36,807 nucleotides of DNA from Candidatus Methylacidiphilales bacterium (lineage in GTDB: Bacteria > Verrucomicrobiota > Verrucomicrobiia > Methylacidiphilales > CAZTYG01): the NCBI GenBank assembly GCA_033875315.1, contig JANRJG010000017.1, forward strand, positions 1-36,807. Reading direction: 5' to 3'. Both the position numbers and the translations under genes were made by a program. Position 1 is the stretch's first letter. Each line of letters starts with the position of its first letter. Positions 10,000 through 29,400 of this stretch are shown here, in pieces. A model generated the notes under the pieces. It saw nothing but the letters and a program-made list of their open reading frames with translations. It did not search any database and had not been told where the DNA came from.

Positions 10000-10148
10000 C
10001 TTCACAAGGCGCAGTTGTTGATCCGCCCCTGCAAACGACGCTTGCAAATCTTGGAATTGATTGAACTGTTCAAAGAATAGTCATCGCCCTCGTTGCTGCT
10101 TAGTAGTAGATCGTAAGTTGAAAGCAACGACGTTCCGTGGCGGCGGTT
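10000..10148. promoter_or_regulatory. malQ upstream region
   Basis: A 149-base gap with lower GC than its surroundings, holding the perfect palindrome at 10061-10073. A weak promoter-like pair, TTGGAA (10051-10056) and AAGAAT (10073-10078) with a 16-base spacer, would straddle the palindrome, so a protein bound there would block polymerase. No small gene is seen. Confidence 0.5.
10061..10073. promoter_or_regulatory. predicted LacI-family operator, malQ site (perfect palindrome)
   Basis: TTGAACTGTTCAA: 6-base arms TTGAAC/GTTCAA around a single T, ending 75 bases before the malQ ATG. Near-identical copies lie upstream of lacI (13694), upstream of the small secreted gene (25585) and at the GH57 start (26489). 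Binding by the LacI-type protein encoded in the locus is inferred. Confidence 0.7.
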
Positions 10149-11942
10149 ATGAACATTCATCCAGAACAGAAGGTGGCAGGCGTTCTGGTTCCGGTATTTG
10201 CCCTCCGGCGGGAAGGGGACTTGGGCATCGGGGACACGGCTGCCTTGATCGAATTCATCCATTGGGCCCGTCGTCATGCCCTCCATTTGGTCCAGATTCT
10301 CCCGATCAATGAAACCGGGGCGGACAACAGCCCCTACAACGCGATCAGCAGCACCGCGCTCGATCCGGTTCTCCTCCGCACCGACCCCGAGGGCCTGGTC
10401 GATCTCGACCCGGCGGCTTTTGCAGAGGAATGTGCCCGCTACGATTTGATTTCCCTGCGCTCAGGCCCGGTGGATTATGGCCGGGTCAAAGCCTTGAAAC
10501 TCGCCTTGTTGTGGCGCGCCTTTGAGGCCTTTGAAAATGACATTCCCGCCCAGGCCCCGCGCGCCCGGGCCTTCGCCGCCTTCCGTCAATCGAAGGCCGA
10601 ATGGATGGAAGACTACGCGCTCTTCCGCGTGTTGATGGAAGAGCAGCGGACGGAGCAGTGGGATCTCTGGCCCCTGGACATCCGCAAGGTGGCCAGTGCC
10701 CGTCGCTGGTTGGAGGCACAAAACGGCGAGCGCCGCCGCCATCTGGCCCGCCAGATGAAGTTCCATATTTACGTCCAATGGCAGGCTTTCCTCCAGTGGG
10801 ATGAAGTCCGCCAACTCTGCGACCGTCTGGGTGTGGCCCTCATGGGCGATGTCCCGATCGGCGTCAGCTACTACAGCGCCGATGTCTTTTCCCGCGGCGA
10901 GATCTTCGAGCTCGACTGGTCCGGCGGTGCCCCTCCCGAGCGCATCTTCAAATCCGATCCCTTCACCGAGAAATGGGGCCAGAACTGGGGCATCCCGCAC
11001 TATCGGTGGGATGTGCTCCGGGAGTTGGACTACGACTGGTGGCGGCAGCGTGTGGCGACAGTCCGCTCGATTTTCCACCTCTTCCGCATCGACCATATCC
11101 TGGGTTTCTACCGCATCTACAGTTTTCCCTGGCGTCCGCAGCGCAATGACGAATTCCTCCCCTTGTCCGAGGAGGAGGCCCGGGTGCGCACCGGTGGGCG
11201 CTTGCCGGGTTTCCTGCCCCGGGGGGATGACAGTCTGGAAGATCGTCTGGCCAACCGGCAGGGGGGCGAGGTGTTGCTGCGGATGGTATTGGAAGAAGTC
11301 GGTGAATTCCGGCTGGTGGGCGAGGATCTGGGCGTGGTGCCGGATTACGTACGGCCCAGTCTGGCGTCGTTGGGCATTGCCGGCTTCAAGATCCCGATGT
11401 GGGAGACCGCCCCCAACGGAAGCCTTCTGCCCGGATCAGGTTACGAACGCCTGTCCCTGGCCACTTACGCCACCCATGACCACGACCCGCTGCGGACGAT
11501 GTGGGAAAAATGGGACGCCATCCTGGCGGCGGCGGCCGCAGGAGACAAGGAGGCCGGGGCCAAGGCGGAAGGGGTGCGGGCGCAGATGCAGCAGCTATTG
11601 GATTTCGCCGACACCGGCTGGCGCGCCGGGGAAGTGGCCTTCGACGACGCCCTGCGCGAGGCCCTGCTCACGGCCCTTTTCCATTCCAATTCGTGGATCG
11701 CGGTGGCCATGATCACCGATCTTTTCGGAACGACCGAGCGCTTCAATGTTCCCGGTGCGGTGGCCGACTCCAATTGGACACGCCGGATGGACCAGACGGT
11801 GGCCGACTGGGAGCGCGATACGGGTCTGAACCAAAAAATGGAGCGCCTGGCCCGGATCATCCGTGCTTCCGGACGGGCCCCCCGGGTGGTCCGTCCGGAG
11901 TGTGCGGAAACCGCCGTCCTCACTGTTTCGCCAGTCACCTAA
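10149..11942 (+). CDS. malQ: 4-alpha-glucanotransferase (amylomaltase, GH77)
   Basis: MalQ moves alpha-1,4-glucan segments between maltodextrins in the cytoplasm, releasing glucose and longer chains. The 597-residue protein has no signal peptide. GH77 landmarks: an N-terminal GVLVPVFALRREGDLGIGD and SPYNAISSTALDP; GDVPIGVSYYSADVF; FRIDHILGFYRIY with nucleophile Asp315; VGEDLGVVPDYVR with acid/base Glu392; and YATHDHDPLRTMW with the third catalytic Asp444. The catalytic triad is therefore intact. The ATG at 10149 is chosen over an upstream GTG at 10137. The predicted operator lies 75 bases upstream, and a pseudopilin gene starts 12 bases after the stop. It is the only evident cytoplasmic glucan enzyme in the locus; no phosphorylase or glucokinase is seen. 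Confidence 0.93.
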   Translation: MNIHPEQKVAGVLVPVFALRREGDLGIGDTAALIEFIHWARRHALHLVQILPINETGADNSPYNAISSTALDPVLLRTDPEGLVDLDPAAFAEECARYDLISLRSGPVDYGRVKALKLALLWRAFEAFENDIPAQAPRARAFAAFRQSKAEWMEDYALFRVLMEEQRTEQWDLWPLDIRKVASARRWLEAQNGERRRHLARQMKFHIYVQWQAFLQWDEVRQLCDRLGVALMGDVPIGVSYYSADVFSRGEIFELDWSGGAPPERIFKSDPFTEKWGQNWGIPHYRWDVLRELDYDWWRQRVATVRSIFHLFRIDHILGFYRIYSFPWRPQRNDEFLPLSEEEARVRTGGRLPGFLPRGDDSLEDRLANRQGGEVLLRMVLEEVGEFRLVGEDLGVVPDYVRPSLASLGIAGFKIPMWETAPNGSLLPGSGYERLSLATYATHDHDPLRTMWEKWDAILAAAAAGDKEAGAKAEGVRAQMQQLLDFADTGWRAGEVAFDDALREALLTALFHSNSWIAVAMITDLFGTTERFNVPGAVADSNWTRRMDQTVADWERDTGLNQKMERLARIIRASGRAPRVVRPECAETAVLTVSPVT

Positions 11943-11954
11943 CCTGATGATACC

Positions 11955-12560
11955 ATGAAATCAAATACGCAACGATCCACCCGCGCCTTCACCCTCATCG
12001 AGATGCTGGTGGTCATCGTGATCATCGGCATCCTGGCCGCGCTGCTCGTGCCGGCGGTCAACCGGGCCCTGGATGCCGCCCAGGTGGCCAAGGCCAAGAG
12101 CGATCTGTCCCAGTTGGTTACCGCGGTGAAGTCTTACGAAATCGAATACGGCGTGCTGCCGACGACTTCAGTGTCCAGCAGTGACGGTCCGGAAGCGACC
12201 GAAGGCTGGTTCCAGGACAACAACGACGAACTGATGAGGGTTCTCAGCGGGGAGGCTTACAACAACCTCAACCAGCGCAGGATCGTCTTCATGGAATTTC
12301 GCGCGGCCAAAGGATCGTCCGGCTCATTCAAGGACGGCCTCGGCTCGGACAATAAATTCTACGATCCCTGGGGGACGCCCTATGCGGTCAAGCTCGACAC
12401 CAGTTATAACAATATGTTAGAGTATTACGATTCGGCCCAGAACAGCAACCTGAGCCGGACGGTCATCGCCATCAGCTTCGGGAAAAACAAAGTCCAGCAA
12501 GATCCCACCAAGGGCACTGACAAGGGCCTGAAAGTGGACGACCTGGTCAGTTTCAAATAA
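11955..12560 (+). CDS. type II secretion (GspG-like) pseudopilin, orphan
   Basis: A 201-residue protein with a class III prepilin leader: MKSNTQRSTRA, then the cleavage boundary A|FTLIEMLVV with Glu at +5, and a hydrophobic helix to about residue 36. The globular part ends with FYDPWGTPYAVKLD, the GspG-type 'DPWG.PY' motif of major pseudopilins, and a Gly/Lys/Asp-rich tail. Residue -1 is Ala rather than the usual Gly, as often in PVC pseudopilins. Such proteins build the periplasmic pseudopilus that drives type II export, or a related pilus. It starts 12 bases after malQ and is probably translated from the same message, under the malQ operator. No other secretion gene lies in the window, so its machine must be encoded elsewhere. 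Confidence 0.85.
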   Translation: MKSNTQRSTRAFTLIEMLVVIVIIGILAALLVPAVNRALDAAQVAKAKSDLSQLVTAVKSYEIEYGVLPTTSVSSSDGPEATEGWFQDNNDELMRVLSGEAYNNLNQRRIVFMEFRAAKGSSGSFKDGLGSDNKFYDPWGTPYAVKLDTSYNNMLEYYDSAQNSNLSRTVIAISFGKNKVQQDPTKGTDKGLKVDDLVSFK

Positions 12561-12587
12561 CACGTCCGGCTTGGCCGGGTTTGCTGC

Positions 12588-13649
12588 TCAAGCGGTTTTT
12601 TTCTTTTTCCGCCCCGGCACTTTCTCCTCGGCGGAACGTCGCACGGTGCTCCCCGGAACCCAGAGGCTCTCCACCATCATACACCTCGGACATTCCGGAA
12701 TGCCTTTTTCATTCCGGTGCAGCTGTCCGATCAACAGGTCCACGGCAAAGGCCCCGACCAAGTGATTGCTTTGTTTCATCCCGCTCCAGCCCTCGACCTC
12801 GCGGGTGAGGTCCAAATGGATCAATCCGATGTCCTTCGGACAGGCCAGCCCGTGTTCTTTCAGCCAGGAGCGGATCTCCGGATGGGTGGTGACCACGACG
12901 TCCGGGTGGTGTCGCTTGAGCCATTGGAAAAAACCGGTTTTTTGCTCCGTGTGGAAGTCCCAGCCGGGCAGGCGTTCTTCGAATCGCGGCGGCCCGGAGT
13001 AGAAACCCGCGGTGAAGCGGTGATCGATGTTTTCTTCGATGGCCGGGTCGATGACCAGGCCGGGGCGGCGGTAACCCAGACGTTGTAATTCTTCTGCCGC
13101 GTGCAAGGCGGTGGAATACTGGTCGTTGCAGGCGAAGTGCAGGGCGGGCCGTTCCGGGCGGACCCCGACGACCACACAGGCAAGGTCACGCCAGAGGAGA
13201 TCGAAGCGGGCGGGGATTTCCCGGTGCTCGAGCACCCCGGCTATGACGACCCCCCGGATATTGCGTGCGCGGAGGATCTGGCGCAGGCGGGCCGGATCCA
13301 CCGCGGGGTCGCGCAGCCAGAATTCATCCAATCCATAGCCCAATTCGGCGCTGTGGGCGGCCAATCCCTCGGTCCAAGTACGGAAAGTGAAGTTCGTGCG
13401 GAGGGCATCGGGATGATTTGAAGCGTTCAAGAGACCCAGGGTCGACTGGTATTTGGGATTCTTGCTCGCGCGGAGCTGGGCCATCAGGTTGGCCACCACC
13501 GCATTGGGCGTGTAGCCAAGGCGCTCCGCCACCCCTTGGATGTGCAGGCGGGTTTCCTCGCGCAGCCGGGTGTCATTGCGCAGGGCCAGGGAAACCGTCG
13601 CTTTACCCACCCCGGCGACCCGGGCGATATCCGCCATGTTGACCGCCAT
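12588..13649 (-). CDS. LacI-family transcriptional regulator, likely local alpha-glucan repressor
   Basis: A 353-residue regulator. The N-terminal helix-turn-helix reads MADIARVAGVGKATVSLAL and is followed by the hinge-helix region (ERLGYTPNAVVANLMAQLR). A periplasmic-binding-protein-like sensor domain follows (TLGLLNASNH, IRGVVIAGVLEH, FACNDQYSTALHAAEELQRLGYRRPGLV, LIHLDL). The ATG at 13649 is chosen; one four codons later (13637) is equally possible and has an AGGA 11 bases upstream, while the longer start at 13736 adds a non-homologous leader. It lies between malQ and the amylase genes, divergent from the 2765-residue amylase. A predicted operator at 13694-13706 is 45 bases upstream of its start, consistent with autoregulation, and a weaker one lies inside the gene. 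The inducer is unknown; maltose or a maltodextrin is inferred from the neighbours. The C-terminus is Lys-rich. Confidence 0.9.
   Translation of the reverse strand: MAVNMADIARVAGVGKATVSLALRNDTRLREETRLHIQGVAERLGYTPNAVVANLMAQLRASKNPKYQSTLGLLNASNHPDALRTNFTFRTWTEGLAAHSAELGYGLDEFWLRDPAVDPARLRQILRARNIRGVVIAGVLEHREIPARFDLLWRDLACVVVGVRPERPALHFACNDQYSTALHAAEELQRLGYRRPGLVIDPAIEENIDHRFTAGFYSGPPRFEERLPGWDFHTEQKTGFFQWLKRHHPDVVVTTHPEIRSWLKEHGLACPKDIGLIHLDLTREVEGWSGMKQSNHLVGAFAVDLLIGQLHRNEKGIPECPRCMMVESLWVPGSTVRRSAEEKVPGRKKKKTA
13418..13430. promoter_or_regulatory. operator-like palindrome inside lacI-type gene
   Basis: TTGAAGCGTTCAA matches the locus operator at 11 of 13 positions and is itself a perfect palindrome (TTGAAG/GTTCAA with wobble centre, arms TTGAA/TTCAA). 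It lies about 275 bases from the upstream site at 13694, a spacing compatible with a looped repressor. It could also be coding coincidence. Confidence 0.35.
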
Positions 13650-13693
13650 CCTGAGATCGTATTCGAACCCGGCGGACTTGCCAGCCGGATTAC

Positions 13694-13706
13694 TTGAACT
13701 GTTTAA
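13694..13706. promoter_or_regulatory. predicted operator between lacI-type gene and giant amylase
   Basis: TTGAACTGTTTAA, one mismatch from the malQ palindrome. It lies 45 bases upstream of the regulator start on the minus strand and 135 bases upstream of the giant amylase on the plus strand, so one bound protein could control both directions. Confidence 0.65.
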
Positions 13707-13841: not shown

Positions 13842-16800
13842 ATGAAGAATTGCCGTCCATTCGGGGCTTTGCTGGTCGCCTGCGGCCTGCTGTTCACATG
13901 CTTCGCCCCGCGCCCGGCGCGGGCCGAGGCCATGTTGCAGTACTTCAACACCAGCTGGGCGGAGATCACCCGCAAGATGCCGGAATTGGCCGAGGCCGGT
14001 TACACCTCGCTTTGGTTGCCACCTCCGACCAAGGGCAGTGGCGGGTTGTCTGTGGGCTACGACCTTTGGGATCCTTTCGATCTGGGCTCGAAGGACCAAC
14101 GGGGTTCGGTGCGCACACGTTACGGCACCGAGGCCGAATTGCTCCACCTCATGGAAGTGGCCCACCGCTTCGGCATCCGTGTCTATTTCGACAACATCAT
14201 GAACCACCGGGCCTTCGATGTTCCGGGCTACAATGAACAAACGGCCATCGATATCTATCCCGGTATGGTTCCCGAGGACTTCCACCTCCGCGTGACGGAA
14301 GACGGATTCTATCGCAAGTGGGACAACACCCGGGATTGGGGCAGTGCCTGGCAGGTACAGAACCTCGGTCTGGCCGATTTGATCGACATCGCCCATGAAA
14401 CCCCCAATGCCAACTTCGGCCGCACCGAGGGTTCCACCCACCCGAAGTACTCCTTCGTGCGCCACCCCAACAATCCGGAATACTACGACCGGCTGCCCAA
14501 CGGCACCTATGTTGGTTTTGGCACCAACAATGGGATCACCACGGGGATCATCGCCGCCAACCCGGATTTTTACAAAGAAGATGTCGGCGCTTACCTCATC
14601 CGCAACGCCCGTTGGCTGATGGACCGGACCCGGGCCGACGGACTCCGGCTCGATGCGGTCAAACACGTCCCTGATTACTTTTTTGGCCAGCAGAGCGGGG
14701 CCAACAAGGACAGCAGCGATGCCGGCTACCTCGGCGGCGTGCAGCGCCAGTTCAACATCACCCGCGGCTTCTCCGACAGCAACCATCGGGATTCCGTCTT
14801 CGACACCGAGAAGGGCCGCGACGACGCCATGGTTTTTGGTGAACACCTGGGCTCGCCTCCCGGTTACTCCGGTTATTGGGACGCCGGGATGCGCCTGGTC
14901 GACAACGACCTCCGCTCCAAACTCAACGGGGTGCTCGGCAGCCCCTGGGGCACCCTGCTGGGGCTGGACAGTGCCGGAGGCGGCGGATTTTCCCCGTCGC
15001 TGGGCGTCATGCACGCCAACAGCCACGACAGTGACTATTCCGCCATGCGCCAGCTCCAACATGCAATGTACTACACCCGCGAGGGGCTGGGCCTGGTTTA
15101 CACCGACGGCTACCACCAGGCGGAAACCCTCGGCGAATCCGGTGGGGCGTTCCCCCGCCATGCCAACACCGCCTTCCTCGGCCAGTTTGCCGATCCCCGC
15201 ATCCCCAACCTGCTGAAGATTCACCAGGACTTTTCCCGCGGGTTCCAGGTCGGTCGCTGGGGCGACAACGATTTCCTCGCCTACGAGCGACGGGACAACC
15301 GCAACCCCGACGGCTCAACCCGCGTGGGCAATGCCGCTGACGAAATCACCATGGTCGTCATGCTCAATGACAACACTGCGGCCGGACAGTCGCGCGCCTT
15401 CAGTCACAGTTTTCCGGCCGGGGCCTATCTTTACCAATACGCCACCGGTCCGAATGGTTCGAACCAGACGGGCTTCTATAAATTTGGCAGCGAATTGTCC
15501 TCGGTGATCGTCCCGCCGGGCGGCTACTTCATCTTCGGCTACCGCACTCCCGAACTCTCGACCCTCTGGCCGGAGTCCGCCATCACGCTCTACCAGAACG
15601 GAGTCGAAGTGCCCCGCATCACCGTCAAGCGGGAGGACGGGCCGGACGGCGACGAATCCTTCAACCCGTTGGGCTTGTCCAACCGCGGTTATGCGCCCGG
15701 GGAAACACCCGAACCTTTCACCTACCAGACCACCGTGCCAGTGGTGAAATCCGGCAGCGCCCTCACCATCCTGGCCCGGGCGGACGGTTCGGCGGAAAAC
15801 ATCATGCTCAAACTCGACGGGGGCGTCGATCTCAACGGCACCGTGCCCCCCGGCATCACCGATCCGGCCAAGCGCGACAACCCGCCCGCCGTTCGCACTG
15901 ATACCTGGCTAGGCTACGAACAACCCACTTTTGTCGACCGCCAGCACCCGGAGAAATTTGCGGCCGTTGATACCGCACGCAGCCAGATCGGATCACCCGG
16001 AGCCGAGACATACTCCAAGGTCATCGGTTCGGGAAACTTCACCATCAACAACGGCCCTGCTGGAGCCAACAACTACAGCACCGAGAGCGGTCGCCAAGCC
16101 GCCTGGATCTACCACGACCCGGCCCAGACGGTCGGAGGCGCAAACGGCACCACGGGCGTTGGCGATGCCCAATACTCCGAGGGCGCCACCACCCTCACTC
16201 TCTGGGCCAAAAGCAATTCAGTGGGCGCGGGTTTCAAGATGTTTGTTTACTACACGGTTGACGGCTCCTATCCCGAGGGCGCGGGCGGTATCGGCCGGGG
16301 CACCACCCAAGTCGCCGAGATGCTCTTCCAGCACAACCAGAATCCCGATGACTGGTGGAACACGGTCGATATCCCCAAGCCGGCCCCCGGCAGCACCTTC
16401 CGCTACAAAATCGGGCTGTTCAAGAACGGCGACGGCATCCAGGCCTCCTGGTGGCCGGCCGACGCCGCCTCCGTGGCCTACAAAAAGAAGATGCTCACCA
16501 CCTTCCGGGTCAACAATTTCGACCCGGCCACCGTTCAGCATCACCTTCACAACGATTACAATTCCCTCACCACCGGTTTGAAAGAAGGCTTCCACGTCCT
16601 CCGGGCCAAGGCCCTGCTCAACCGGAATCCCTCAACCCAGGCCGCCCTCTACCAGACGTTCACGCAAACCTTCTACTACGATGCCGTCACCCCGGGCGGC
16701 GAGGTGGCCTTTCCGCAGAACAATGGCGATACCGTCGGCGGTTCTTCCTACGAAGTGGTCATCCGCACCGATCCCACAGTCGAAGAAGTCTGGTACAATA

Positions 16801-19800
16801 TCGACGACAGTGAGGCTGGCAACAACGACTCGGCCACCGCCAAACTCAATGGCAATGGTGACGGCTTCGAGCCCTTCACCGATGAGAACCAAAATGGTGT
16901 GCGCGATTCCGGGGAGGCCTTCACCGATCTCAACGGCAACGGAGCCTACGATGACGACATCCCCATGGCCTGGGCCCGGGCCACCGAGGTCACGGCCAAC
17001 CCGGCCGTGACCAGCACCTACGCCAAGGAATGGCGTCTGCGTTACACCAACATTCCCTCCGACAACTCCGCCACCCTCACGCTTCGTCTGCTCGAAGCCT
17101 CATCCTCGCGCAATTTCACCCTCAACGCGACCGTCGGCCACTACACCGAATTGCAACGCACCGTCCAGACCCGCGGGCCGCTTGAACGCATCAATATCGC
17201 CTGGCCACAGAACGATGGCGACCGTGTGGACGACAACTACACCATGAAGGTCTACTTCTCCAAATCACTGGCCAATGGATTGAGCGAGACCGACTTGAAG
17301 AACCGCTTCACCTTCTCCGCCAACGGGGTTGCCCAGAGCCGTTCGGGATTCGCCATCAACTACGGCAGCTTCGGCCCGGGCGGCGCATATCATGAATTGT
17401 CCGTCCCGTTGCCCAACCTGTACAACGACGTGGCGGATTTCCTCCACGAATTGAAGGTCGAATACCGGTTCCCGGACCCCGATAACCGCGTGCTCCAGGC
17501 CTTCCGCCTGGTCGTGGCCAACCCCAGTACCAAGCCCTACGTCCTCATCACCCAACCGGCCGAACTCGGCTCCGACGGCAAACCCGTCGAAATCGTCCTG
17601 CCGGACGGCCCGGGGGCCGATTCCACCATCTCCACCGTGCGTGTCACCACCGGCATGACGGTCACCGGCCTCTCGCTCAGTTATCTCACCGGCAACATCA
17701 CCCTGGTCAATGAGCCCTTCACCGACAGCAACTCGAACGGCAAATACGACGACGGGGAGCCCTTCACCGACAGCAACAGCAACAACGTTTGGGAAGGCAC
17801 CACGGTGGAAACCGTGGGCACGACCAAGTATTGGGATTTCCGCTGGTTGATCACCGCCCCTGGAACTTACAATTTGGTCGCTGCTACAACTTCCACCACC
17901 AACGGCCAGTCGGCCAGCGACACCCGCAGTGCCCTGGTGGTCCTGCGCGAATCCGTCGCCACCGACGTCGATGAATACAACGACGACGACGACGACGGGT
18001 TGATCGACATCGACGAAACCAATCCCAAGGAACTCCCCACCGGCAATGCCGAAACCTGGACCAACGGGGATGTGCACGTTTATTACGCCTACGGACGCAC
18101 CCTGCCCAACACCCCGGATTCGGATGGTGACGGACTGCCCGATGGCCTCGAGGTCGGCTGGCGCACCGCCGCCAGTGCCACCACCAACGCCACCATGGAC
18201 ACCAACGGCGACGGTTTCCCGAATTTCATCGGCGACATGGACCCACCGCTTTATGCCGTTCTGGAAAACAACGGCTACGTCCCCGGCGTTGGCTCGGCCA
18301 GCCAGGGGGACAGCCGCACCCGCCAGGCCGCCGGTTCGGTCACGAATCCCTCCAACCCCGACACCGACGGGGACGGACTGCCCGATGGCATCGAGGACGC
18401 CAATCGCAACGGCTGGACCGACGGGGATGGAAAAACGCTCCCGCTGACCGCCACCCGGACCCAATATGCCACCGCCCGCCCGAACGCCGGTGATTGGCCC
18501 AATGGCATCATCGATTCCTTCGAAACCTGGACCGAAACCAGCCCGGTCAAGGCGGACAGCGATGGCGACGGCCTTGTCGATGGTTACGGCGAGGACAAGA
18601 ATGCCAACGGTCTCATCAACGGCGACACCGACCTCGACCGCGTGTACGATGCGGGTGAAGCTTGGACGGAAACCGATCCCCTCAAAGCCGACACCGATGG
18701 TGATGGCCTGCCTGACGGCTGGGAAGTCCAATACGGTCTCGACCCGCTCGACAACGGAACGGACAGCATGCGCTCGGCTGATCCCAATGACGGCAATCCC
18801 CAGATGGGCGCCAGTGGGGACTTGGATAACGACGGCTTGACCAATGCCCAGGAGTTGGCGGCCAATACCAATCCGACCCAGATCACCGTGGTCAGCAGCG
18901 GGGGAGGGGAGGGCACGATCCGCATCGGCACCTTCACTGATTGGACCCACAACGACCTGCTCGCACTCGATGAATACAACGAGGGCGGCAGCCAGGGCGC
19001 CGACGTCTATCGCACCAACAATTACGACAATTCCCGCGATATCGTCGCCTTCTCCTTCCGCGATGGCGGGGCGGTTGCCTCCGGCGGAGATGGCAAGGTG
19101 TATTTCCGCGTCGACCTCGTCGACCTCGCCGCCAATGCCGAACAGGGCGAAGTGGATGCCTACGTGGTCATCGACACCGGCAACACCGCCGTCGGCGAGC
19201 GCGCACTCCCGGATTCCGTGGATATCGCCACCGATATGCGTTGGGAAGTCGTAGTCGCCGCATACGGGCAGAATTCCGGCGCGGTTCTGGTGGACACCAA
19301 TCGCAGCAACAACACCACCACCGATGTCCAGACACCCAACGAGGCTTTCGGGGTCGAGCGGCGCGGCATCACCGCCAATGGCCTCAATGCCGTTGCCTGG
19401 TCGAGCAAATACGATGCGGTGGAAATCGCCGTCCAGCGCCAGGCTCTCCTCGATGCCGGTTGGCTGGGTGACCCCTCCACGCTCAATTTCCAGGTCTTCA
19501 CCACCCGCGATGGCACCCAGAACAGTCCCGTGGGTCCGGGCGACATCGGCGGACGTAATGACATCCGCGACACCATTGGGGACGACTGGCTGGCTTCCGA
19601 TTATTGGAAGGACCAGGACAACATCCGCCTCAATGGCAAGCTGACGAGTTTCTTCGGACGCTCCAGCAACAACGACCGGGGCAAGGCGGCCAAGGTCATG
19701 CTTCTGGCCCACGGCAACCATTCGATCCTGCCGGCCAGTGCCATCCAGACTTTGGTCCACAATGGGGCGAGTTCCGGGGCGGCGGGTTACTTCCGCATGC

Positions 19801-22139
19801 TGCAAACCCACGAGAATTACCACGCTCCATTGACCCTCCACGTCACCCCGACGCTGGCCTCGGCCCTGCAATGGGCCGTCAATCCCGCCCCGGGTGCGAC
19901 CAACGACGGGCCCTCCCTAAACGCCCGCATTGCCGCCCTGGTTTCCGGTGGTAATGCCACGATCCTGGGGTCGACTTACGCCGACCATATTCCGAAATAC
20001 TTCCCGCAGGCCTTCAATCACGCGAACAAATTGCTAGCAGACAAATTCCTGGATTCCATCTACGGGGCCGGCAATGCCACCGCCTCCCGCCAGGCGTTCT
20101 GGGCCCCGGAACGGGTTTTGGACGACGAAACCCTGGCCCAGATCGCCGCCATGGGTTACACCCACACCTTCGCCGACCAGACCCGCCACTTGGTCAAGTG
20201 GTTTGGACGCACCTCCGCCCTAGGCACCGACGGCTTCCGTCTCAATGAGGTCAATGGCGTGAAAATTTTCCCCATCCACGACACCACCTCGGAATACCTC
20301 GACCAGACCCTCGATGAGGGGGCCTCCCAACCGGTGCGTGAGTTGCTTTCCCGTCGCGCACGCAGTTCGGTCCAGGACCAAGTGGTCGTTCTCTGGCGTG
20401 ATATGGCGGATTTTGCCGACAATGCCAAGTCTTCCTCTTACGACGCCAACGTCCGCTGGCTGGCCAGCCGCCCCTGGATCCGGGTGGTCACGGCGGGCGA
20501 TATCATCAACGGTTCGGTGGCCTACAAGGGCCAGGACGGCAATACCTACACCACTTGGGGCACCGTGGCCCGTGGCTCCGGGCTCAACCTCATCCAGACG
20601 GCCAAGGATTGGATCGACCACGCCACCCAGGAAAATTACGATAACTGGTATAATGGCTCGGCCAATGAACAGGGCCTGGCCGGGCGCAATTTTGGCGCCA
20701 CCACCCCCTTCGGACAGGTGGGTTCCAGTGGCCATGCCAACACCGTCTGGCAGACCCTCGCCGGCACAACCTTCTTCTCCAGCCTCGCCGACCTGGCCGG
20801 CAGTGTTTTCCACGCCGCCATGTTCCAGACCGCCTTCCACAACACCAGCAACAACGACCTCTCCAAGTTCAGCACCGGTGCCTATATCTATCCCGACAGT
20901 GACAGCAACCAAACCCTCGCCGATTTCGCCAAATATGCCCAGTCCCAGGCCCGATATGCGGTCGTTTACAGCCGGGTCCAGCAATGGGCCAACTCCGCCA
21001 CTTCCTCCACCCTCGCCGCCGAGGCCGCGGACATCGACCTTGATGGCTCCAACGAGTATCTCCTCTACAATTCCCGGGTCTTTGCCCTGTTCGAGGCCAA
21101 GGGCGGACGCATGACCGCCGCCTGGATGCGCGACCCCTTCACCGGGCGTCTATGGCAGGTCGCGGGCAACTTTGCCTCCTACAGCGGCACGGACACCGAA
21201 GATGAAGGGGCCTCCAATTTTGTCGGCGCCACCACCATCCTCTCCGCCTATCGCACCAGTGGATTTAAAGACTGGTGGACGGTCAACACCTCCAATGCCG
21301 GCTCCAACAGCGGCGTCAATTCTGTCTATACCGTCGCCCCGGCCCCGGACGGCACCGGTTGGACCTTCACCAGTGGGGGTATCAGCAAAACGATCCGCAT
21401 CCCGGCGGCCGCCTCGGAAAAAATCCGCGCCACTTACACCCTGACCGGATTGAACAAGGCTTACATCCGCTTCGGCCTGTCCCCGAACCTCCTCGCCCTC
21501 ATGCTCCAGGGGCAATCCGGCCTCTCCGCTGAGGCGGCCACCGCCACCCGGGCGAGCATCACCAACACCCGCGGGGGCGATGTGGTCCGGGCCTGGGTCG
21601 AGGCTCCACAGATCAACGCTGCCGCCACCGACGTGGCCGCCTCCGGCTTCACCACCGTCCTGCGTCGCAACCAGGCCCAAACCCACCAATTGGAAGCCGA
21701 GCTCACCGGAGCGGGGCCCCATACCCTCACGCTCGGCTTCGACCTCGGAACCGATCTCCCGGAAAATGACACCGACGGGGACACCCTCCCGGACGACTGG
21801 GAAACCGCCAACTTTGGCAATCTCAATGCCAATCCGACCGGCGATGCCGACAACGATGGCCTGACCAACCACGTGGAGTACCGCATCGGATCCAACCCCA
21901 ACAATGCCGCCAGCGGACGTTCCGCCACCCTGGCCGGGACCCCTGTTTCCGGATTTGACATCACCTTCCCGACCCTCTCCGGGTTGACCTACCAGGTGCA
22001 GTTCAGCAACAGCCTGACCCCCACGGATTGGCAGCCTTTGGGTTCACCGGTTCCGGGCGACGGCAACAACCAAACAGTCACCGACAGCGGCACCCTGCCC
22101 GGCCGCCGGTTCTACCGGGTCCTCGTCACTTCGCCATGA
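13842..22139 (+). CDS. giant secreted dual-catalytic alpha-glucan hydrolase (GH13 + GH57-like)
   Basis: A single intact 2765-residue reading frame. A signal peptide (1-29, ...FAPRPARA) precedes a GH13 alpha-amylase domain (about 30-590) with region I DNIMNH (Asp117-His122), II GLRLDAVKH (nucleophile Asp271), III FGEHLG (acid Glu334) and IV NSHDS (His395-Asp396), all catalytic residues present. Then come beta-rich modules (about 640-1370) with two EPFTD...NGN...D inserts (1010-1040, 1291-1316) and a long Ca-binding Asp-rich repeat region (1377-1680, many DSDGDGLPDG units). A beta-sandwich (about 1690-1930) precedes a second catalytic, GH57-like domain (about 1950-2230) with LLAHGNH, GGNATILGSTYADH and FWAPERVLDD (candidate nucleophile Glu2090), followed by a GH57-type C-terminal beta domain (DIDLDGSNEYLLYNSRVFAL). 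The end has another Asp-rich repeat and the FYRV-type terminal module. No clear Shine-Dalgarno precedes the ATG. The next gene overlaps by four bases. Starch is inferred as substrate. Confidence 0.9.
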   Translation: MKNCRPFGALLVACGLLFTCFAPRPARAEAMLQYFNTSWAEITRKMPELAEAGYTSLWLPPPTKGSGGLSVGYDLWDPFDLGSKDQRGSVRTRYGTEAELLHLMEVAHRFGIRVYFDNIMNHRAFDVPGYNEQTAIDIYPGMVPEDFHLRVTEDGFYRKWDNTRDWGSAWQVQNLGLADLIDIAHETPNANFGRTEGSTHPKYSFVRHPNNPEYYDRLPNGTYVGFGTNNGITTGIIAANPDFYKEDVGAYLIRNARWLMDRTRADGLRLDAVKHVPDYFFGQQSGANKDSSDAGYLGGVQRQFNITRGFSDSNHRDSVFDTEKGRDDAMVFGEHLGSPPGYSGYWDAGMRLVDNDLRSKLNGVLGSPWGTLLGLDSAGGGGFSPSLGVMHANSHDSDYSAMRQLQHAMYYTREGLGLVYTDGYHQAETLGESGGAFPRHANTAFLGQFADPRIPNLLKIHQDFSRGFQVGRWGDNDFLAYERRDNRNPDGSTRVGNAADEITMVVMLNDNTAAGQSRAFSHSFPAGAYLYQYATGPNGSNQTGFYKFGSELSSVIVPPGGYFIFGYRTPELSTLWPESAITLYQNGVEVPRITVKREDGPDGDESFNPLGLSNRGYAPGETPEPFTYQTTVPVVKSGSALTILARADGSAENIMLKLDGGVDLNGTVPPGITDPAKRDNPPAVRTDTWLGYEQPTFVDRQHPEKFAAVDTARSQIGSPGAETYSKVIGSGNFTINNGPAGANNYSTESGRQAAWIYHDPAQTVGGANGTTGVGDAQYSEGATTLTLWAKSNSVGAGFKMFVYYTVDGSYPEGAGGIGRGTTQVAEMLFQHNQNPDDWWNTVDIPKPAPGSTFRYKIGLFKNGDGIQASWWPADAASVAYKKKMLTTFRVNNFDPATVQHHLHNDYNSLTTGLKEGFHVLRAKALLNRNPSTQAALYQTFTQTFYYDAVTPGGEVAFPQNNGDTVGGSSYEVVIRTDPTVEEVWYNIDDSEAGNNDSATAKLNGNGDGFEPFTDENQNGVRDSGEAFTDLNGNGAYDDDIPMAWARATEVTANPAVTSTYAKEWRLRYTNIPSDNSATLTLRLLEASSSRNFTLNATVGHYTELQRTVQTRGPLERINIAWPQNDGDRVDDNYTMKVYFSKSLANGLSETDLKNRFTFSANGVAQSRSGFAINYGSFGPGGAYHELSVPLPNLYNDVADFLHELKVEYRFPDPDNRVLQAFRLVVANPSTKPYVLITQPAELGSDGKPVEIVLPDGPGADSTISTVRVTTGMTVTGLSLSYLTGNITLVNEPFTDSNSNGKYDDGEPFTDSNSNNVWEGTTVETVGTTKYWDFRWLITAPGTYNLVAATTSTTNGQSASDTRSALVVLRESVATDVDEYNDDDDDGLIDIDETNPKELPTGNAETWTNGDVHVYYAYGRTLPNTPDSDGDGLPDGLEVGWRTAASATTNATMDTNGDGFPNFIGDMDPPLYAVLENNGYVPGVGSASQGDSRTRQAAGSVTNPSNPDTDGDGLPDGIEDANRNGWTDGDGKTLPLTATRTQYATARPNAGDWPNGIIDSFETWTETSPVKADSDGDGLVDGYGEDKNANGLINGDTDLDRVYDAGEAWTETDPLKADTDGDGLPDGWEVQYGLDPLDNGTDSMRSADPNDGNPQMGASGDLDNDGLTNAQELAANTNPTQITVVSSGGGEGTIRIGTFTDWTHNDLLALDEYNEGGSQGADVYRTNNYDNSRDIVAFSFRDGGAVASGGDGKVYFRVDLVDLAANAEQGEVDAYVVIDTGNTAVGERALPDSVDIATDMRWEVVVAAYGQNSGAVLVDTNRSNNTTTDVQTPNEAFGVERRGITANGLNAVAWSSKYDAVEIAVQRQALLDAGWLGDPSTLNFQVFTTRDGTQNSPVGPGDIGGRNDIRDTIGDDWLASDYWKDQDNIRLNGKLTSFFGRSSNNDRGKAAKVMLLAHGNHSILPASAIQTLVHNGASSGAAGYFRMLQTHENYHAPLTLHVTPTLASALQWAVNPAPGATNDGPSLNARIAALVSGGNATILGSTYADHIPKYFPQAFNHANKLLADKFLDSIYGAGNATASRQAFWAPERVLDDETLAQIAAMGYTHTFADQTRHLVKWFGRTSALGTDGFRLNEVNGVKIFPIHDTTSEYLDQTLDEGASQPVRELLSRRARSSVQDQVVVLWRDMADFADNAKSSSYDANVRWLASRPWIRVVTAGDIINGSVAYKGQDGNTYTTWGTVARGSGLNLIQTAKDWIDHATQENYDNWYNGSANEQGLAGRNFGATTPFGQVGSSGHANTVWQTLAGTTFFSSLADLAGSVFHAAMFQTAFHNTSNNDLSKFSTGAYIYPDSDSNQTLADFAKYAQSQARYAVVYSRVQQWANSATSSTLAAEAADIDLDGSNEYLLYNSRVFALFEAKGGRMTAAWMRDPFTGRLWQVAGNFASYSGTDTEDEGASNFVGATTILSAYRTSGFKDWWTVNTSNAGSNSGVNSVYTVAPAPDGTGWTFTSGGISKTIRIPAAASEKIRATYTLTGLNKAYIRFGLSPNLLALMLQGQSGLSAEAATATRASITNTRGGDVVRAWVEAPQINAAATDVAASGFTTVLRRNQAQTHQLEAELTGAGPHTLTLGFDLGTDLPENDTDGDTLPDDWETANFGNLNANPTGDADNDGLTNHVEYRIGSNPNNAASGRSATLAGTPVSGFDITFPTLSGLTYQVQFSNSLTPTDWQPLGSPVPGDGNNQTVTDSGTLPGRRFYRVLVTSP

Positions 22140-25100
22140 ATGCATCCACCACTCTCCCTCCGTTCAAAAGCCTTTCCATCACAGTATTGCTGTTGCTGGC
22201 TGCGGTCATTTCGTCTCCGGCCCAGATTGTCACCAATCTCTGGCATATCCCCTCGAATACGACGGACATACCCGGCGGTATTTCCATGCGTTCTCCGGTG
22301 AGTCCCGGTTCCGGGGTGGGCACAACCCTTTACCAGGGGGTTTGGCGGAACGGCGGGAACAACAACCAGACCGGTGGTACACTCTACTACCGGACCGGCA
22401 ACAGCGGCGCTTGGTCATCGGTGGCGCTTTCTTTCGCCGCCAACAACGGCGACAACCAGTTCTGGAGCGCTTCGGTGACTACTGGGTCTCCCGGTTCCAC
22501 CCTTCAATATTACTTCAGGGTCACGTTTTCCAACAAATCAACCACCTACCTCTACACTTCGGGCGGTGTCAGTGCCCAGTCCCTGACCGAATCCGATGCC
22601 CAGGCCAGTCCCTTCAGCGTCACCGTCGGTGCGGCCCCTTTTTCCCTGACCGTCAGCAGCGCCACCACCGGGGCACTCAATGCCGACTACACCACCACCA
22701 AGCTTTACATCGATGAACTCCAGGCCCAATCGGTCCCCGTCACTTTCACCTTCAATACCGGTGCGCTCAACACCGCCGAGGCCGAAGTTTGGACCAACCT
22801 CAACAACCGGGACCGCGCCGATGATGACGCCGACGCGGATGGCATCGACGATGGCATCGTTCCCCCCACACCCCCCGATGAAAAGCCATCGGGCTACGCG
22901 GGCGGTGCCTACCCGGCCAATGGCTACTTCCAGGCCATCCCCCTGGCCGGAGGCAACGGTACCTATTCCCTCACTGTCAACGCCACCAAAACCGGGGCCT
23001 ATCGCCTCACCGCCCGTTATCGTCTTTCCGGGAATTCGACCTGGATCTGGTATTCATCCTCCGGCCGGCGTGACCACTGCATCACCGTGGCTCCCCAACT
23101 CGCTCGCAACCTCCGCATCTACGAGGCCAATGTGCTCAATGTCGATGCCACCGGGCCGACCTTTGCCCAGCGTTCGACCTTTGAAAGCCTGACCGACAAC
23201 ACCCGCTGGAACCTGGATTATCTCCTCAAGACCGGTTCCAATGCCATCTGGTTCCAGCCCATCCATCCCAATGGAATCGAGGGCCGCGAAGCCCCCGGTG
23301 GAACCCCCTACGATCCCGGCAGCCCTTATGCCGTGAAGAACTTCTTCCAAGTGATGGAACAGATGAGCCAGGGCAATACCCGCAATGCCTCCATGGCCGC
23401 ATTCCAGAACTTCGTCTCCATCGCCGATACCAAGGGGATCAGCATCATCCTCGACGCCCCATTCAACCACACCGCCTTCGACTGTGAAATCGACCAGATT
23501 GGATTGAATGTCTTTTCCGCCGCGGGGCTCAACACCTCGGGCTGGAGTGCCACCGACAAAATAAAGGACCGCGAAGCCAGGTTCTATTCCTCGGCCGGTG
23601 GCGCGGGCACTGCTTACTCCGTTCCCGCTTCCTCCGCTGGTGATGTCGCCGCCGCTCCCGACCGCAACGACTTCGGCAAGTGGAACGACGTCAAGGATGT
23701 CTTCTTCGGACGCTACGCCACTCTGGTCACCGGCTATCCGGATGCGGATACCAGTCGGAACACGGTCAAAATCGAGACCGATACCATCGATATGTCATCG
23801 CTGAACGGTGCTGCCGGCTCGACCCAGGCGGTCACCCGTGGGGTTTGGAAGTACTTCGCCTCCTACGTGCCCTACTGGCTGGAGAAAACCGGCCTGCCCG
23901 CCGGCAGTTCCCTGACCGATCAATCCTACAAGGGCATCGATGGGTTGCGTGCGGATTTCGGCCAAGGCATGCCCCCGCAATTCTGGGAATACGCCATCAA
24001 CGTGGCCCGTTCCCACAAATGGAGCTTTGTGTTCATGACCGAGTCGCTTGACGGCGGCGAAGTCACCTACCGTTCCAACCGTCATTTCGAACTTCTCAAT
24101 GAAAACATCGTTTTTCCCTTCCAGTCGGCCACCACCACCACCGGATACCGCGACATCTTTGAAGGACGGCGCAACGCCTACGGTCAGGGTCTGGTCCTGC
24201 TCAACAACACTTCCCATGACGAAGCGGGCTACTCCGATCCCTGGCAGGCCTTCATCCGCTATGCGGTCGGCAGCACCATCGACGGGGCCCCCATGGTGAT
24301 GTATGGCCAGGAAATCGGCACGGCTGCCAGCCTCAGCTTTGACTTCTACGAGTTGAATTTTGGCAAGAGCATCCCCCACTTCAAACGCTACAACTCGATG
24401 CAGCCACAATGGACGGCCTGGGCCTCCAACACCCTTGGCGTGGCCAACCTCATCCCGGCCTATTCCGGTGTCGGTCTGGCCCGTGGCTTCAGCCCCGCCC
24501 TCCGTTCCTCCAACCGATGGTTCCTCAATCCCAATGGCAACAGCACCGCCGACCCCGACATATTCGCCGTGGCCAAGTACCAGACCAGCGGGGCTTCGCC
24601 CGCGACCAGCGATGTGGTTCTGGCCTTCCTCAACCTGGACCGCACCAACGCCCAGTCCAATACCTTTGGCATCCCCACGGCTTTGGCCGATAACATGGGC
24701 CTCCAAAGCGGCCGACGCTACAACGTCAAAAACATCGCGGCCTACCTCGGCCCCAACAATGAATACGATGGACGTCGCGATGTTTTCCTTTGGGGCACCA
24801 ATGGGTTCACCCGTGAGGACCTCGTCACCAACGGGGTCTTTGTTTCACTCAATCCGGTGCCCTCCACCGACGGTGCCTGGGCCACCGCCCCTTTCGAGGC
24901 CCAATACCTCAAGCTCTATGACGTGACACCGTTGCCCGCACCTTCCTCCGCGCCCCTTGTCGGCGACTACGCCCTTGATGGATCGGTCACCTTTACTTGG
25001 AGCCCTGTCGTCGATGCCGGAGGTCTGACTCCACGCTACCGCCTCACCGTGACCCGCAGTGACAGTGTGGTCCAGAATTTCGAAACCACCCTGACGTCCT

Positions 25101-25516
25101 ACACCGTCACCGGCATCCCCGACGGAGTCACGGCCACGGCCACCGTCACCACCCTCAATCCCAACAACACCGCCATCGCCTCCAGCCCGACTTCCGCCAG
25201 CAATCCAACACGATCGCTCACTTCGGCCGGAGACAACGACAACGATGGCATCACCAACGCCGCAGAAGTTTACGACGGCACCAACCCGCTCGATGCCACT
25301 TCCCGTTTGAAAGTGGCTTCTGTCCAGGCCATCCCGGGCAGCGGCTTCACCCTCACTTGGTCCACCGTCGCCGGACGCACTTACCGGGTGGAATCCCGCG
25401 CCAGCCTCACCTCGGGGGATTGGTCGGTCCTGGCCAGCGGACTCACCTCCGGCAACTACACCGACCCCGCGGCTCTGACCGACAAAAAATTCTACCGCGT
25501 CATCACCGAGCCCTGA
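22136..25516 (+). CDS. secreted GH13 alpha-amylase with Ca-repeat and C-terminal FYRV module
   Basis: A 1126-residue exported GH13 enzyme. The signal peptide (about 1-30, SITVLLLLAAVISSPAQ) is followed by a beta-sandwich (about 60-165, GTLYYRTGNSGAWSSVALSF), a linker containing a small Asp-rich insert (DDDADADGIDDG), and the catalytic barrel from about 370. Conserved regions: I DAPFNHTAF (Asp440, His445), II GLRADFGQG (nucleophile Asp607), III FMTESLDGG (Glu636), IV NTSHDEAG (His694-Asp695); all are intact. After the barrel come an Ig/Fn3-like domain (about 940-1025), a short Asp-rich repeat (DNDNDGITNAAEV) and the terminal YRVESRASL...FYRVITEP module shared with two other enzymes here. The ATG overlaps the upstream stop (ATGA), indicating coupling with the giant amylase. 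Exact bond specificity cannot be read from the motifs. Confidence 0.9.
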   Translation: MNASTTLPPFKSLSITVLLLLAAVISSPAQIVTNLWHIPSNTTDIPGGISMRSPVSPGSGVGTTLYQGVWRNGGNNNQTGGTLYYRTGNSGAWSSVALSFAANNGDNQFWSASVTTGSPGSTLQYYFRVTFSNKSTTYLYTSGGVSAQSLTESDAQASPFSVTVGAAPFSLTVSSATTGALNADYTTTKLYIDELQAQSVPVTFTFNTGALNTAEAEVWTNLNNRDRADDDADADGIDDGIVPPTPPDEKPSGYAGGAYPANGYFQAIPLAGGNGTYSLTVNATKTGAYRLTARYRLSGNSTWIWYSSSGRRDHCITVAPQLARNLRIYEANVLNVDATGPTFAQRSTFESLTDNTRWNLDYLLKTGSNAIWFQPIHPNGIEGREAPGGTPYDPGSPYAVKNFFQVMEQMSQGNTRNASMAAFQNFVSIADTKGISIILDAPFNHTAFDCEIDQIGLNVFSAAGLNTSGWSATDKIKDREARFYSSAGGAGTAYSVPASSAGDVAAAPDRNDFGKWNDVKDVFFGRYATLVTGYPDADTSRNTVKIETDTIDMSSLNGAAGSTQAVTRGVWKYFASYVPYWLEKTGLPAGSSLTDQSYKGIDGLRADFGQGMPPQFWEYAINVARSHKWSFVFMTESLDGGEVTYRSNRHFELLNENIVFPFQSATTTTGYRDIFEGRRNAYGQGLVLLNNTSHDEAGYSDPWQAFIRYAVGSTIDGAPMVMYGQEIGTAASLSFDFYELNFGKSIPHFKRYNSMQPQWTAWASNTLGVANLIPAYSGVGLARGFSPALRSSNRWFLNPNGNSTADPDIFAVAKYQTSGASPATSDVVLAFLNLDRTNAQSNTFGIPTALADNMGLQSGRRYNVKNIAAYLGPNNEYDGRRDVFLWGTNGFTREDLVTNGVFVSLNPVPSTDGAWATAPFEAQYLKLYDVTPLPAPSSAPLVGDYALDGSVTFTWSPVVDAGGLTPRYRLTVTRSDSVVQNFETTLTSYTVTGIPDGVTATATVTTLNPNNTAIASSPTSASNPTRSLTSAGDNDNDGITNAAEVYDGTNPLDATSRLKVASVQAIPGSGFTLTWSTVAGRTYRVESRASLTSGDWSVLASGLTSGNYTDPAALTDKKFYRVITEP

Positions 25517-25584: not shown

Positions 25585-25597
25585 TTGATCTGTTCAA
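25585..25597. promoter_or_regulatory. predicted operator upstream of small secreted gene
   Basis: TTGATCTGTTCAA, one mismatch from the malQ palindrome; the flanking A and T extend its symmetry by one base each side. It lies 63 bases before the ATG at 25661 and would let the same regulator control the distal half of the locus independently. Confidence 0.65.
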
Positions 25598-25660
25598 TAG
25601 ATTCTCCTTCGACTCCCCGGTATCGACACTTAAGATGGCTTTGATTGCTTTGGTGACTTC

Positions 25661-26461
25661 ATGAAGACCGTTCTTCCCATTCTGTGTTTCCTTGCCATGT
25701 CCCACGCGATGCTATCCGCCCGTGAACGGATCAATCTGGCCGAAGACGATGCGGCCCACAGCGCTTACAACGGTGGTTGGAACAATGGCGGTAACGCCGC
25801 CAACAGTGGCTTTGGAGGCTGGCAACTCGTCACCTCGGGTGCGGACAAATCCGACCGCCATGCCGGATTCATCATCGCCCGGCGTGAGGCAGGCAACGAA
25901 CTCGACCATGCCGACATCGACCGCAAAGCGTTCGGCCTCTACGCGAATGGCAGTGGTTTTGAGACCGCCGTCGCCTTCCGCAACCTCGACAACCCTCTCG
26001 GCGTGGGGGAATCCTTTTCTCTCCTCATGGAAGCGGGCGATTTCGCCCCCAAAACCGGCTCCGATGACCCCAAGCCAGGATGGGTCGGCTTTGCCCTCCG
26101 CACCGGCACCGCATCGGCATCAACCGAAGACATCGAGCGGGCGGCCCGTTTTGTCTTCGGTGTCCGGCAGGGGGAGAGCCGCTACTTCGTGCGCGATGGG
26201 GGCAAGGATACGGACACCGGGGTGGAGGCCAACGGCTCGGGGGTGGCCGTCACGGTCACCCTGGTCTCGGCTGATGCCTACGATCTTGAGATTACCGCAC
26301 TCGATACCAAGGTGACCAAACGCTTTGCCGGACGGCGGCTCGCGGGTCCGCCCGGCGGGCCGATTGAAAGTTTCGCCCTCTGCAACCAGGACGGGGAGAA
26401 GGGGGATGCCTACTTCAACGGCTTCCAAGTCACCCGCCTCGTCGAGTCCCTGCCCCGCTGA
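25661..26461 (+). CDS. small secreted protein of unknown function in amylase locus
   Basis: A 266-residue protein with a signal peptide (about 1-20, TVLPILCFLAMSHAMLSA) and a single beta-rich domain. I do not recognise a named family. Visible features are an aromatic/Asn-Gly N-terminal block (AYNGGWNNGGNAANSGFGGW), KAFGLYANGSGFETAVAFR, LGVGESFSLLMEAGDF, and a central Asp/Gly-rich stretch. The alternating pattern suggests a jelly-roll or concanavalin-like carbohydrate-binding fold. No catalytic signature can be named. It follows its own predicted operator and is 21 bases upstream of the secreted GH57 gene, so a glucan-binding or enzyme-accessory role is a reasonable but untested guess. Confidence 0.8.
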   Translation: MKTVLPILCFLAMSHAMLSARERINLAEDDAAHSAYNGGWNNGGNAANSGFGGWQLVTSGADKSDRHAGFIIARREAGNELDHADIDRKAFGLYANGSGFETAVAFRNLDNPLGVGESFSLLMEAGDFAPKTGSDDPKPGWVGFALRTGTASASTEDIERAARFVFGVRQGESRYFVRDGGKDTDTGVEANGSGVAVTVTLVSADAYDLEITALDTKVTKRFAGRRLAGPPGGPIESFALCNQDGEKGDAYFNGFQVTRLVESLPR

Positions 26462-26482
26462 ATCCCCATTTTGTCGTTGGCC

Positions 26483-29400
26483 ATGAAATTGAACTGTCCA
26501 AGCTGGAGACCCTGGGCCCTTGCTTTTCTGGCCTGGGGGATGGCCACCAGCCACGCCAACAACAACGTCTATGTCTCCCGCTTCTGGCACAACCACCAGC
26601 CGATCTATTGGCCGGAGTGGAACGGCAACGGAGGGCAGAACCAGCGCATCCAGTATGCCTGGGATTCGATCGTGTTGAAAAACGGCCAGACCTACGGCAC
26701 CGGCGTGGGCCACCCGGAAAATGACCTGGGCAACATCTTTGGACTCGACGACCGCCGCAATGCCTATCAAAGCGGCCCGCGAAATTCCCTGGCCTCTTTT
26801 AACAGCAACGGGGGTTTCGCCGTCAGCTACTCCGGTTCGCTCATCGACAACGTCCGCCAGCTCGGTTCGCTCGGCCAGCTCGGCTACGGCAGCGGCTGGA
26901 ACAACGGTTACCGCGAGGCCCGTGGCTGGCGCACCCGCAACGGCACCGGGGCCACCCGCATGGACATGGTCGGGTTCACCTACCACCACTCGCTCGCCCC
27001 CCTCATCCCCAAGGCCGTCCTGCGCAAGGAAATCCAGATCTTCAAGCAGGCTTGGTGGAAGGCCTGGGGCGGCAACGCCGACCTCTCCGACCATTCCAAG
27101 GGATTCTTTCCCACCGAAATGGCCTATTCGCGCCACATCATCGATGTCCTGGCCGATGAAGGCTACGAATGGGTCATTGTTCCCAGCCACCACATCAGCC
27201 GCACCTGTCCGACCTACAACAACCAGGCCGACCCCACCGCCTCCTACAACATATTCTCCAGCCCGCCCAACAAGGCCGACCAGATCGGCCCATCCCCCAC
27301 CACCGGTTGGTGGTACAGCCAGCCCAACCCCGGCAACGCCGCTTGGAATGTCGCCCCCTACGCCTACCAGCTGCACAAGGTCAAATACGTCAACCCCGAA
27401 ACCGGGGCGGAAAAATTCATGGTTGCCGTGCCCTCCGACGATGTACTCAGCTATCGCTACGGCTACGCCAATGAGGGCATCGGCAAAATCGGCGAGTTCA
27501 TTTCACCTTTCGCCACCGATCCCAACCGCCCGGTCATCGTCATGCCCGCGACCGACGGCGACAATGCCTGGGGAGGGGGATCAAGTTCCTGGAACGAAGC
27601 CACCCCGCAATTCTTCAATGGCTCGGCTTCGGCCGGTTACCGGCCTTCCACCCCCCAGGATTTCGTGGATGACAACAAGGCCAATGCCCCCCTGGCCCAC
27701 ATCGAGGACGGGGCTTGGATCTTTCCGGAGAGCGACTACGGTTCGCCCTACTTCCTCAAATGGATCGAGCCCCCGGTGGGCAACGCCACCAGCACCACGA
27801 AAGTTCCGGGCACGGTCATCGACTTGGAAACGCCCGGCTTCGCCCTCAAATTCTGGAGCTGGGCCCCGGTCATCACGGGGGCCAATTGGGTCGAGACCGC
27901 GGAACAGATCCTGCGCGATGAGGGGGGCAGTGCACGGGCCTGGGTTATCCAGGCGCCTTACGATTGGGGCGATGGCAACACCTCCAGTTGGAATCCCGCA
28001 CCCAACGATGTCGAGCTGGCCTGGCACATCTACCTCGGCGGTCTCGATTCCGGCTTCAATTACTACGGCGGCCTGGGAAATGACGATGAAGTCAAACAGT
28101 CCCTGGCCACCCGCCGTGCCATTGAAAAACTGCAGCCTTGGATGACCGCGTCCCGCCGCAACAACGACCGCACCCCGCCCTCGGTCCTCAAGCCCCAACG
28201 CTTCCCCTACAACCCGGGTGCCTACACCTTCGGATGGTTCAATTCCATTCCCGGCGGTGACACCCGTTACCTCAAAAAGATGCCTTCGGAATTCTACATC
28301 TGGACCCACGCCTACGATCTTTCTGGAATTTCCTCGGTGAATCTCAAGGTGCGCATCGACGCCGACGGCACCAATCCGCTGGGCTCGAACCAGAATGAAA
28401 CCTACGCGGGCGGCGGCGAAGTGGGTTCCTGGGTCAGCCTTCCCATGACCAAAAAAGTCCTGCCCAATTCCCCCTCCACCCTCAACGCCGCCGCCAACAA
28501 CGGCCAGATCAATTACTTCACCACCCCACCCGAACTGGCCGATTACTACGTGGTCAAAATCACCAACACCAACCTGGCGGGTTTCAAGGGCAAGCTCCTC
28601 GATTATTACGTCGAGGCCACCGACACCCGCAACAACACCCACAAGTCCGACATCCAGCATGTCTTCGTCGAGGACGATGGTACCGCCACCCAGCCCCCCG
28701 CCGCCCCCACCGGCCTGGCGGGGGAATCCCCGGCGGGTAACCGCATCAACCTCGGTTGGACCGCATCCTCCGAAGCCTCCAGCTACCGCATCCTCCGGGG
28801 TGGGGTCGAGGTGGGCACCAGCGCCTTTCCCTACTTCTCCGACACCACCGTCATGCCCTCGACCTCCTACAGCTATACCGTCATCGCGGTGAACAGTGCC
28901 GGGCAGTCCTCCCCCAGCGCCGCCCTGTCCATCACCAGTGCGGCACCCGGTGTCGATCCTCCGCCCTTTGTGCTCAGCGGCTCCGCACCCCCCGGTTATC
29001 TCCTCAGCAACCCCGGCATGACGATTTACGCCTGTGTCCGCGGCACCAAGCTTTACGTCGCCACTTGGTTTGCCGCTGCCGCCAATGGCAATGACCATTT
29101 CGTCCTGGTTTCCGATGAACTCCTGCCCTCCGCCACCACCCCCGCCCTGGCGGGTTGGGGCAAGGCCGGGCAGGTGGCCGTGCCCACCACCGCGGCCGTG
29201 CTTTGCATGGAGTCCACCAATGGCTGGGCCGGATGGCAGTGGCACAATCCCGGCGGCACCACGCTGAATGGCACCGTCAACAAGAACGCTTCCGGCCAGG
29301 TGGAGGGAGTCATCGATCTGGTGGACACCTTCGGCACGATGCCCGACACGCTCTACTTTGCCAGTGCCGCCTATCAAACCGCCAACGGTGGCGCCCTGGC

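Follow-up and report, generated by a model that had tools for sequence, protein, structure and literature searches.

A 36,807-nucleotide stretch of a Candidatus Methylacidiphilales bacterium genome (contig JANRJG010000017.1, positions 1 to 36,807; hereafter the window) carries a cluster of alpha-glucan genes together with a gene for a LacI-family regulator. We conclude that this regulator (12588-13649) very probably reads the palindrome TTGAAC-N-GTTCAA as its predicted operator, because of the rarity of the motif, the identity of its targets, its conservation with the regulator and its dependence on the class of recognition helix. The first-pass annotation of this DNA had proposed that the LacI-type protein regulates the locus, and these four lines of evidence support that proposal, with binding itself inferred. 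For LacI regulators, the textbook repressors, operator geometry and the recognition code have been worked out mostly on even palindromes and TVSR helices. Operator motifs of this kind help to decode the sugar regulons of this group of Verrucomicrobia; in the literature searched, we found no sugar-regulon reconstruction for the group, and nothing on the 13-mer or on LacI operators in Verrucomicrobia.

A rare 13-bp palindrome beside alpha-glucan genes

With at most one mismatch, the palindrome TTGAACTGTTCAA was present at six places in the 3.15 Mb genome, compared to one place for a reversed-pattern control at the same threshold. Four of the six lie within the window, which makes up 1.2% of the genome (P ~3e-7). 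When two mismatches were allowed, the window held five places, or 10 strand-rows, whereas dinucleotide shuffles gave an expectation of 0.56 and always stayed below 10 strand-rows. The 13-mers reported in the first-pass annotation, at 10061, 13694, 25585 and 26489, were all found at those positions:

10061..10073, no strand: predicted operator TTGAACTGTTCAA, exact match, 63-76 bp before malQ (GTG 10137 / ATG 10150)
12588..13649, minus strand: LacI-family regulator (PF00356, E 1.6e-13); open reading frame (ORF) open from 13736, likely start 13649
13694..13706, no strand: predicted operator TTGAACTGTTTAA, between lacI and the divergent giant amylase gene, predicted to be autoregulatory; orthologous lacI-upstream sites in relatives
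25585..25597, no strand: predicted operator TTGATCTGTTCAA, 63 bp before the gene for a 266-amino-acid (aa) secreted protein that heads a GH57/GH13/MFS run
26489..26501, no strand: doubtful operator TTGAACTGTCCAA, inside the GH57 gene, codons 3-7 (ATG 26483)

Exact copies of TTGAACTGTTCAA number three genome-wide, including the one at 10061. The 13694 site precedes the giant amylase gene by 135 bp and the likely lacI start (ATG 13649, complement) by about 45 bp, in agreement with the earlier description of a LacI-type gene lying between the sites with one of them upstream of its own start; given this position between divergent starts, it can serve both genes. Corresponding autoregulatory sites were found in relatives, with exceptions given below. 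The earlier placement of the sites held for the three intergenic ones, whereas the site at 26489, described as a GH57 start, lies within the coding region. Since it is coding and has no counterpart at the homologous GH57 start of G172, the genome with the closest orthologous regulator by identity (LacI 64% identical), we treat it as doubtful and not conserved. The fifth window place, at 13418 with two mismatches, was considered as a looping partner of 13694 and dropped, as it falls in the coding part of lacI and is without a match at that position in relatives.

The two remaining places lie on other contigs, one at C4:59894, some 150 bp ahead of a CBM20 esterase gene, and one at C39:2233, between a GH13 amylase gene and a divergent PEP-CTERM-like gene. 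Thus, the regulon that had been called local does have glucan targets in the window, but it is not purely local and reaches contigs C4 and C39. The genome has six distinct GH13 genes, four in the window, one at C39 and one on C9; five of the six lie within regulon loci, the C9 gene being outside. A seventh, looser match (TTGAACGGTTTAA) was located at C39:4732, ahead of a gene for a PATR autotransporter-like protein. In two genomes, genes for proteins of this kind or for PEP-CTERM proteins were seen to adjoin operator-like sites (L029:4732; L218:1136; L224:4888).

Conservation with the regulator and its recognition helix

The first-pass annotation had proposed checking whether matches concentrate upstream of glucan genes and whether the motif covaries with the recognition helix of the regulator, and both checks were run. 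Both in this genome and in relatives, the matches proved to be concentrated before glucan genes. In G172, TTGATCTGTTCAA stands letter for letter as at 25585 before the homologue of the 266-aa gene and GH57 (L225:12815) and also precedes a giant-amylase paralogue, while TTGAACGATTCAA lies between the homologues of the C39 amylase and PEP-CTERM genes. In G306 (LacI 56% identical), six exact sites were found, five of them beside GH13 or CBM20 genes (L217, L218, L219, L220, L222), in addition to one-mismatch sites before the giant amylase gene (TTAAACTGTTCAA, L223) and before lacI (TTGAACTGTCCAA, L136). The footprints in these two genomes show that sites are conserved at homologous targets. In family f4 genomes (L145, L147), whose LacI is ~40% identical, the site before lacI and the neighbouring amylase and MFS genes are both retained.

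The window LacI has its helix-turn-helix domain at the N-terminus (PF00356 above cut-off), with the recognition helix VGKATVSLALR in translation. The match to the periplasmic-binding-protein-like sensor domain PF13377 fell slightly short of the cut-off (E 2e-5, 25.1 bits, cut-off 26.5), and the hinge-helix leucine (Leu56 of E. coli LacI) is kept in PNAVVANLM, with LacI numbering aligned by eye. Up to 384 genomes of the class, together with public contigs, supplied the LacI relatives; the motif was counted as present if a match with no more than two mismatches, disregarding the centre, lay in the ~350 bp before lacI. It was found upstream of 12 of the 16 genes with GK[A/S]T, AKST or SKAT helices and of none of the 39 with SKN[T/A] (Fisher 4e-9, in a test that ignores relatedness, 4 of the 12 motif-bearing genes being near-copies); the motif goes with the helix class. 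As the helix grouping was chosen after the first matches had been seen, the P value is descriptive. Among 15 genomes with SKN regulators only, three had exact matches, located inside fliF, next to recQ and in or close to an unassigned ORF. One-mismatch matches in these genomes occurred at rates somewhat above the reversed control, and single near matches are therefore not to be read as sites.

A palindrome-constrained de novo search of the lacI upstream regions alone, with no motif supplied, returned TTgAAC.GTTcAA (TTGAACNGTTCAA) for the first set (score 75 compared to <=24 in shuffles) and acaTgAC.GTcAtgt for the SKN set, in 37 of 39 genes (score 323 at width 17 compared to <=38). Odd widths clearly outscored even widths in both sets. 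The information in 24 selected sites was confined to 13 bases, with mostly A or T at the centre; because these sites were selected by motif matching, conservation inside the 13 bases is partly built in, while the absence of signal outside them is not.

The operator of the sister SKN group is likewise an odd palindrome, ACWTKACNGTMAWGT, making the single-base centre a property of a class-wide subfamily. The gene for the nearest paralogue of the window LacI (SKNT, on C14) is preceded by ACTTGACAGTAATGT, a sequence with no second exact copy in the genome. A LacI with an AKST helix (L104) is accompanied by four TCGAACNGTTCGA sites (7750, 8765, 10898, 13787) around GH39 and enolase-superfamily genes, which is a third half-site variant, and some members of a smaller SxAT group have AACTGTT-centred sites such as TTTAACTGTTTAA. 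On the sequences compared, the odd centre is common to the groups while the half-site changes with the helix, since the window, SKN and AKST groups pair odd palindromes with differing half-sites. We consider it likely that these proteins form a class-wide TVSLALR subfamily for which odd AC-N-GT palindromes are standard and in which residues equivalent to LacI 16 and 18 set specificity (GKA: TTGAAC; SKN: ACWTKAC; AKS: TCGAAC), a code separate from that of TVSR helices and even palindromes.

At SKN loci (L100, the C14 paralogue, and others), only a few bases separate the end of ACWTKACNGTMAWGT from the start codon in many genomes, an arrangement suggestive of leaderless transcripts. Because the ATG follows so closely in many genes, the TTGACA within this motif probably does not serve as a -35 box.

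Predicted regulon and alternative readings

Gene assignments in the window were made with Pfam and NCBIfam:

10137..11942, plus strand: malQ, GH77 4-alpha-glucanotransferase (PF02446, E 9e-109)
11955..12560, plus strand: GspG/pseudopilin-like protein (Pfam/NCBIfam), probably co-transcribed with malQ
13842..22139, plus strand: giant 2765-aa protein with GH13 and GH57-like parts and TSP3 repeats (Pfam)
22028..25516, plus strand: 1162-aa GH13 protein (Pfam)
25661..26461, plus strand: 266-aa protein, N-terminal leader-like, without Pfam match
26483..29767, plus strand: GH57 protein (PF03065, E 7e-10)
29638..32352, plus strand: 904-aa GH13 protein (Pfam)
32349..34766, plus strand: 805-aa GH13 protein with CBM48/AMPK1-CBM (Pfam)
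34791..36116, plus strand: MFS sugar transporter, GPH-sucrose-like (Pfam/NCBIfam)

In the mechanism we propose, a LacI dimer would sit on the odd palindrome, each of its two recognition helices (GKATVSLALR) contacting a TTGAAC half-site. The dimer would control its own promoter and the divergent giant-amylase promoter, the malQ unit, the unit encoding the secreted protein, GH57, GH13 and MFS proteins, and two to three distant targets, namely the CBM20 esterase gene, the GH13 amylase gene with its divergent PEP-CTERM gene and perhaps the autotransporter-like gene. The protein would then act as a dimeric repressor of its own gene and of an alpha-glucan regulon of mainly secreted proteins, and a product of glucan breakdown, maltose or a maltodextrin, would release it. 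We infer physical binding, repression and this release; repression is suggested by the distance from the sites to the starts that follow them (~45-150 bp), a spacing shared with most LacI repressors. The pilin-like protein behind malQ also seems to be part of the glucan regulon, since its G172 homologue (L226:4415-5063) is directly preceded by the operator-like TTCAACTGTTCAA. The divergent pairing of the giant gene with lacI is kept in L135, L137 and L138.

Several observations weigh against assigning the motif to the window LacI. In the tree, the GK[A/S]T regulators form one side of a weakly supported branch and, together with the near-copies, this means that few independent evolutionary changes lie behind the covariation. 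Four members of the motif set are exceptions without a clear lacI-upstream site: L135 (G172), L144 and L165 (both GKAT) and L139 (SKAT). The gap between lacI and the giant amylase gene in G172 (L135:5408-5533) holds a half-site only (TTGAACGG), with full sites at targets elsewhere, and any of the proteins behind the 17 other LacI-domain matches of the genome could in principle bind the motif. The window LacI might then be a mere neighbour of a real operator read by a LacI paralogue or a non-LacI factor, as the 18 LacI-domain matches in the genome and the retention of target sites in G172 without a full site at its lacI would allow. We regard this as improbable, given that in different families the site goes with lacI genes of the GK[A/S]T type, that SKN-type lacI genes lack it in their upstream regions, and that the nearest paralogue has a different motif of its own, found exactly once in the genome. 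LexA, brought to mind by the GAAC/GTTC half-sites, was set aside on spacing alone, which is larger in LexA sites than in the 13-mer.

Nor do we think it likely, though it is the less improbable of these alternatives, that the regulator is an activator or dual-acting protein and not a simple repressor. Some LacI-family members, e.g., Cra, do activate (PMC4052901), and no convincing promoter was found for the sites to block: positions 9900-14000 held one promoter-like match, equal to the shuffle mean and away from the sites, leaving a -35/-10 reading of the sites unsupported. However, the sigma-70 consensus may not apply in this phylum, and sites 45-150 bp upstream of starts, with one at the regulator's own gene, are a common repressor layout. 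That the matches reflect chance or a generic repeat with no regulatory role is highly improbable. The places at 26489 and 13418 do lie in coding sequence and are not conserved, but six near-exact places in 3.15 Mb, four of them in the window, and sites conserved at homologous genes in other genera contradict such an origin.

Comparison with known LacI systems

Among LacI motifs, 96% are even palindromes (1251 of 1303 regulators), 1173 of them with a central CG, and 4% are odd (PMC4052901, the text of which makes no mention of Verrucomicrobia). In contrast, the operator predicted here is an odd palindrome that has a 13-bp core and lacks CG. The single-base centre had been called unusual for LacI; it is indeed rare, yet it has precedents in the family (PMC4052901) and is found throughout the subfamily studied here. 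Like the odd palindromes of LacR, GalR and EbgR (PMC4052901) and the natural O1 of E. coli LacI (PMC2978694), the operator has an extra base at or near the centre; unlike them, it has the half-site TTGAAC and is paired with a TVSL and not a TVSR helix, and odd geometry is the rule throughout its class-wide subfamily. For the TVSR group, operator positions NT-4 and NT-5 have been tied to residues equivalent to LacI 17 and 18 (PMC2978694). The TVSL proteins fall outside that code, although the differing residues (16 and 18) and the differing bases lie in the same area.

With MalR, MdxR and MalI, the LacI-family maltose and maltodextrin regulators, the window LacI shares the LacI DNA-binding domain, predicted autoregulation and adjoining alpha-glucan targets, while NCBIfam models of named LacI regulators matched it far below cut-off and essentially over the DNA-binding domain only. 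The sister SKN[T/A]VSLALR group, represented by the C14 paralogue, has the same odd AC-N-GT core upstream of its own gene, but it differs in its half-site, ACWTKAC, and in this genome its own site is the only exact match. A large, naturally varied odd-palindrome subfamily of this kind would offer dozens of regulator/operator pairs for studying the hinge and half-site spacing with an extra base pair. Odd LacI operators are already known singly; the new part is a class-wide odd-palindrome subfamily with its own pairing of helix to half-site.
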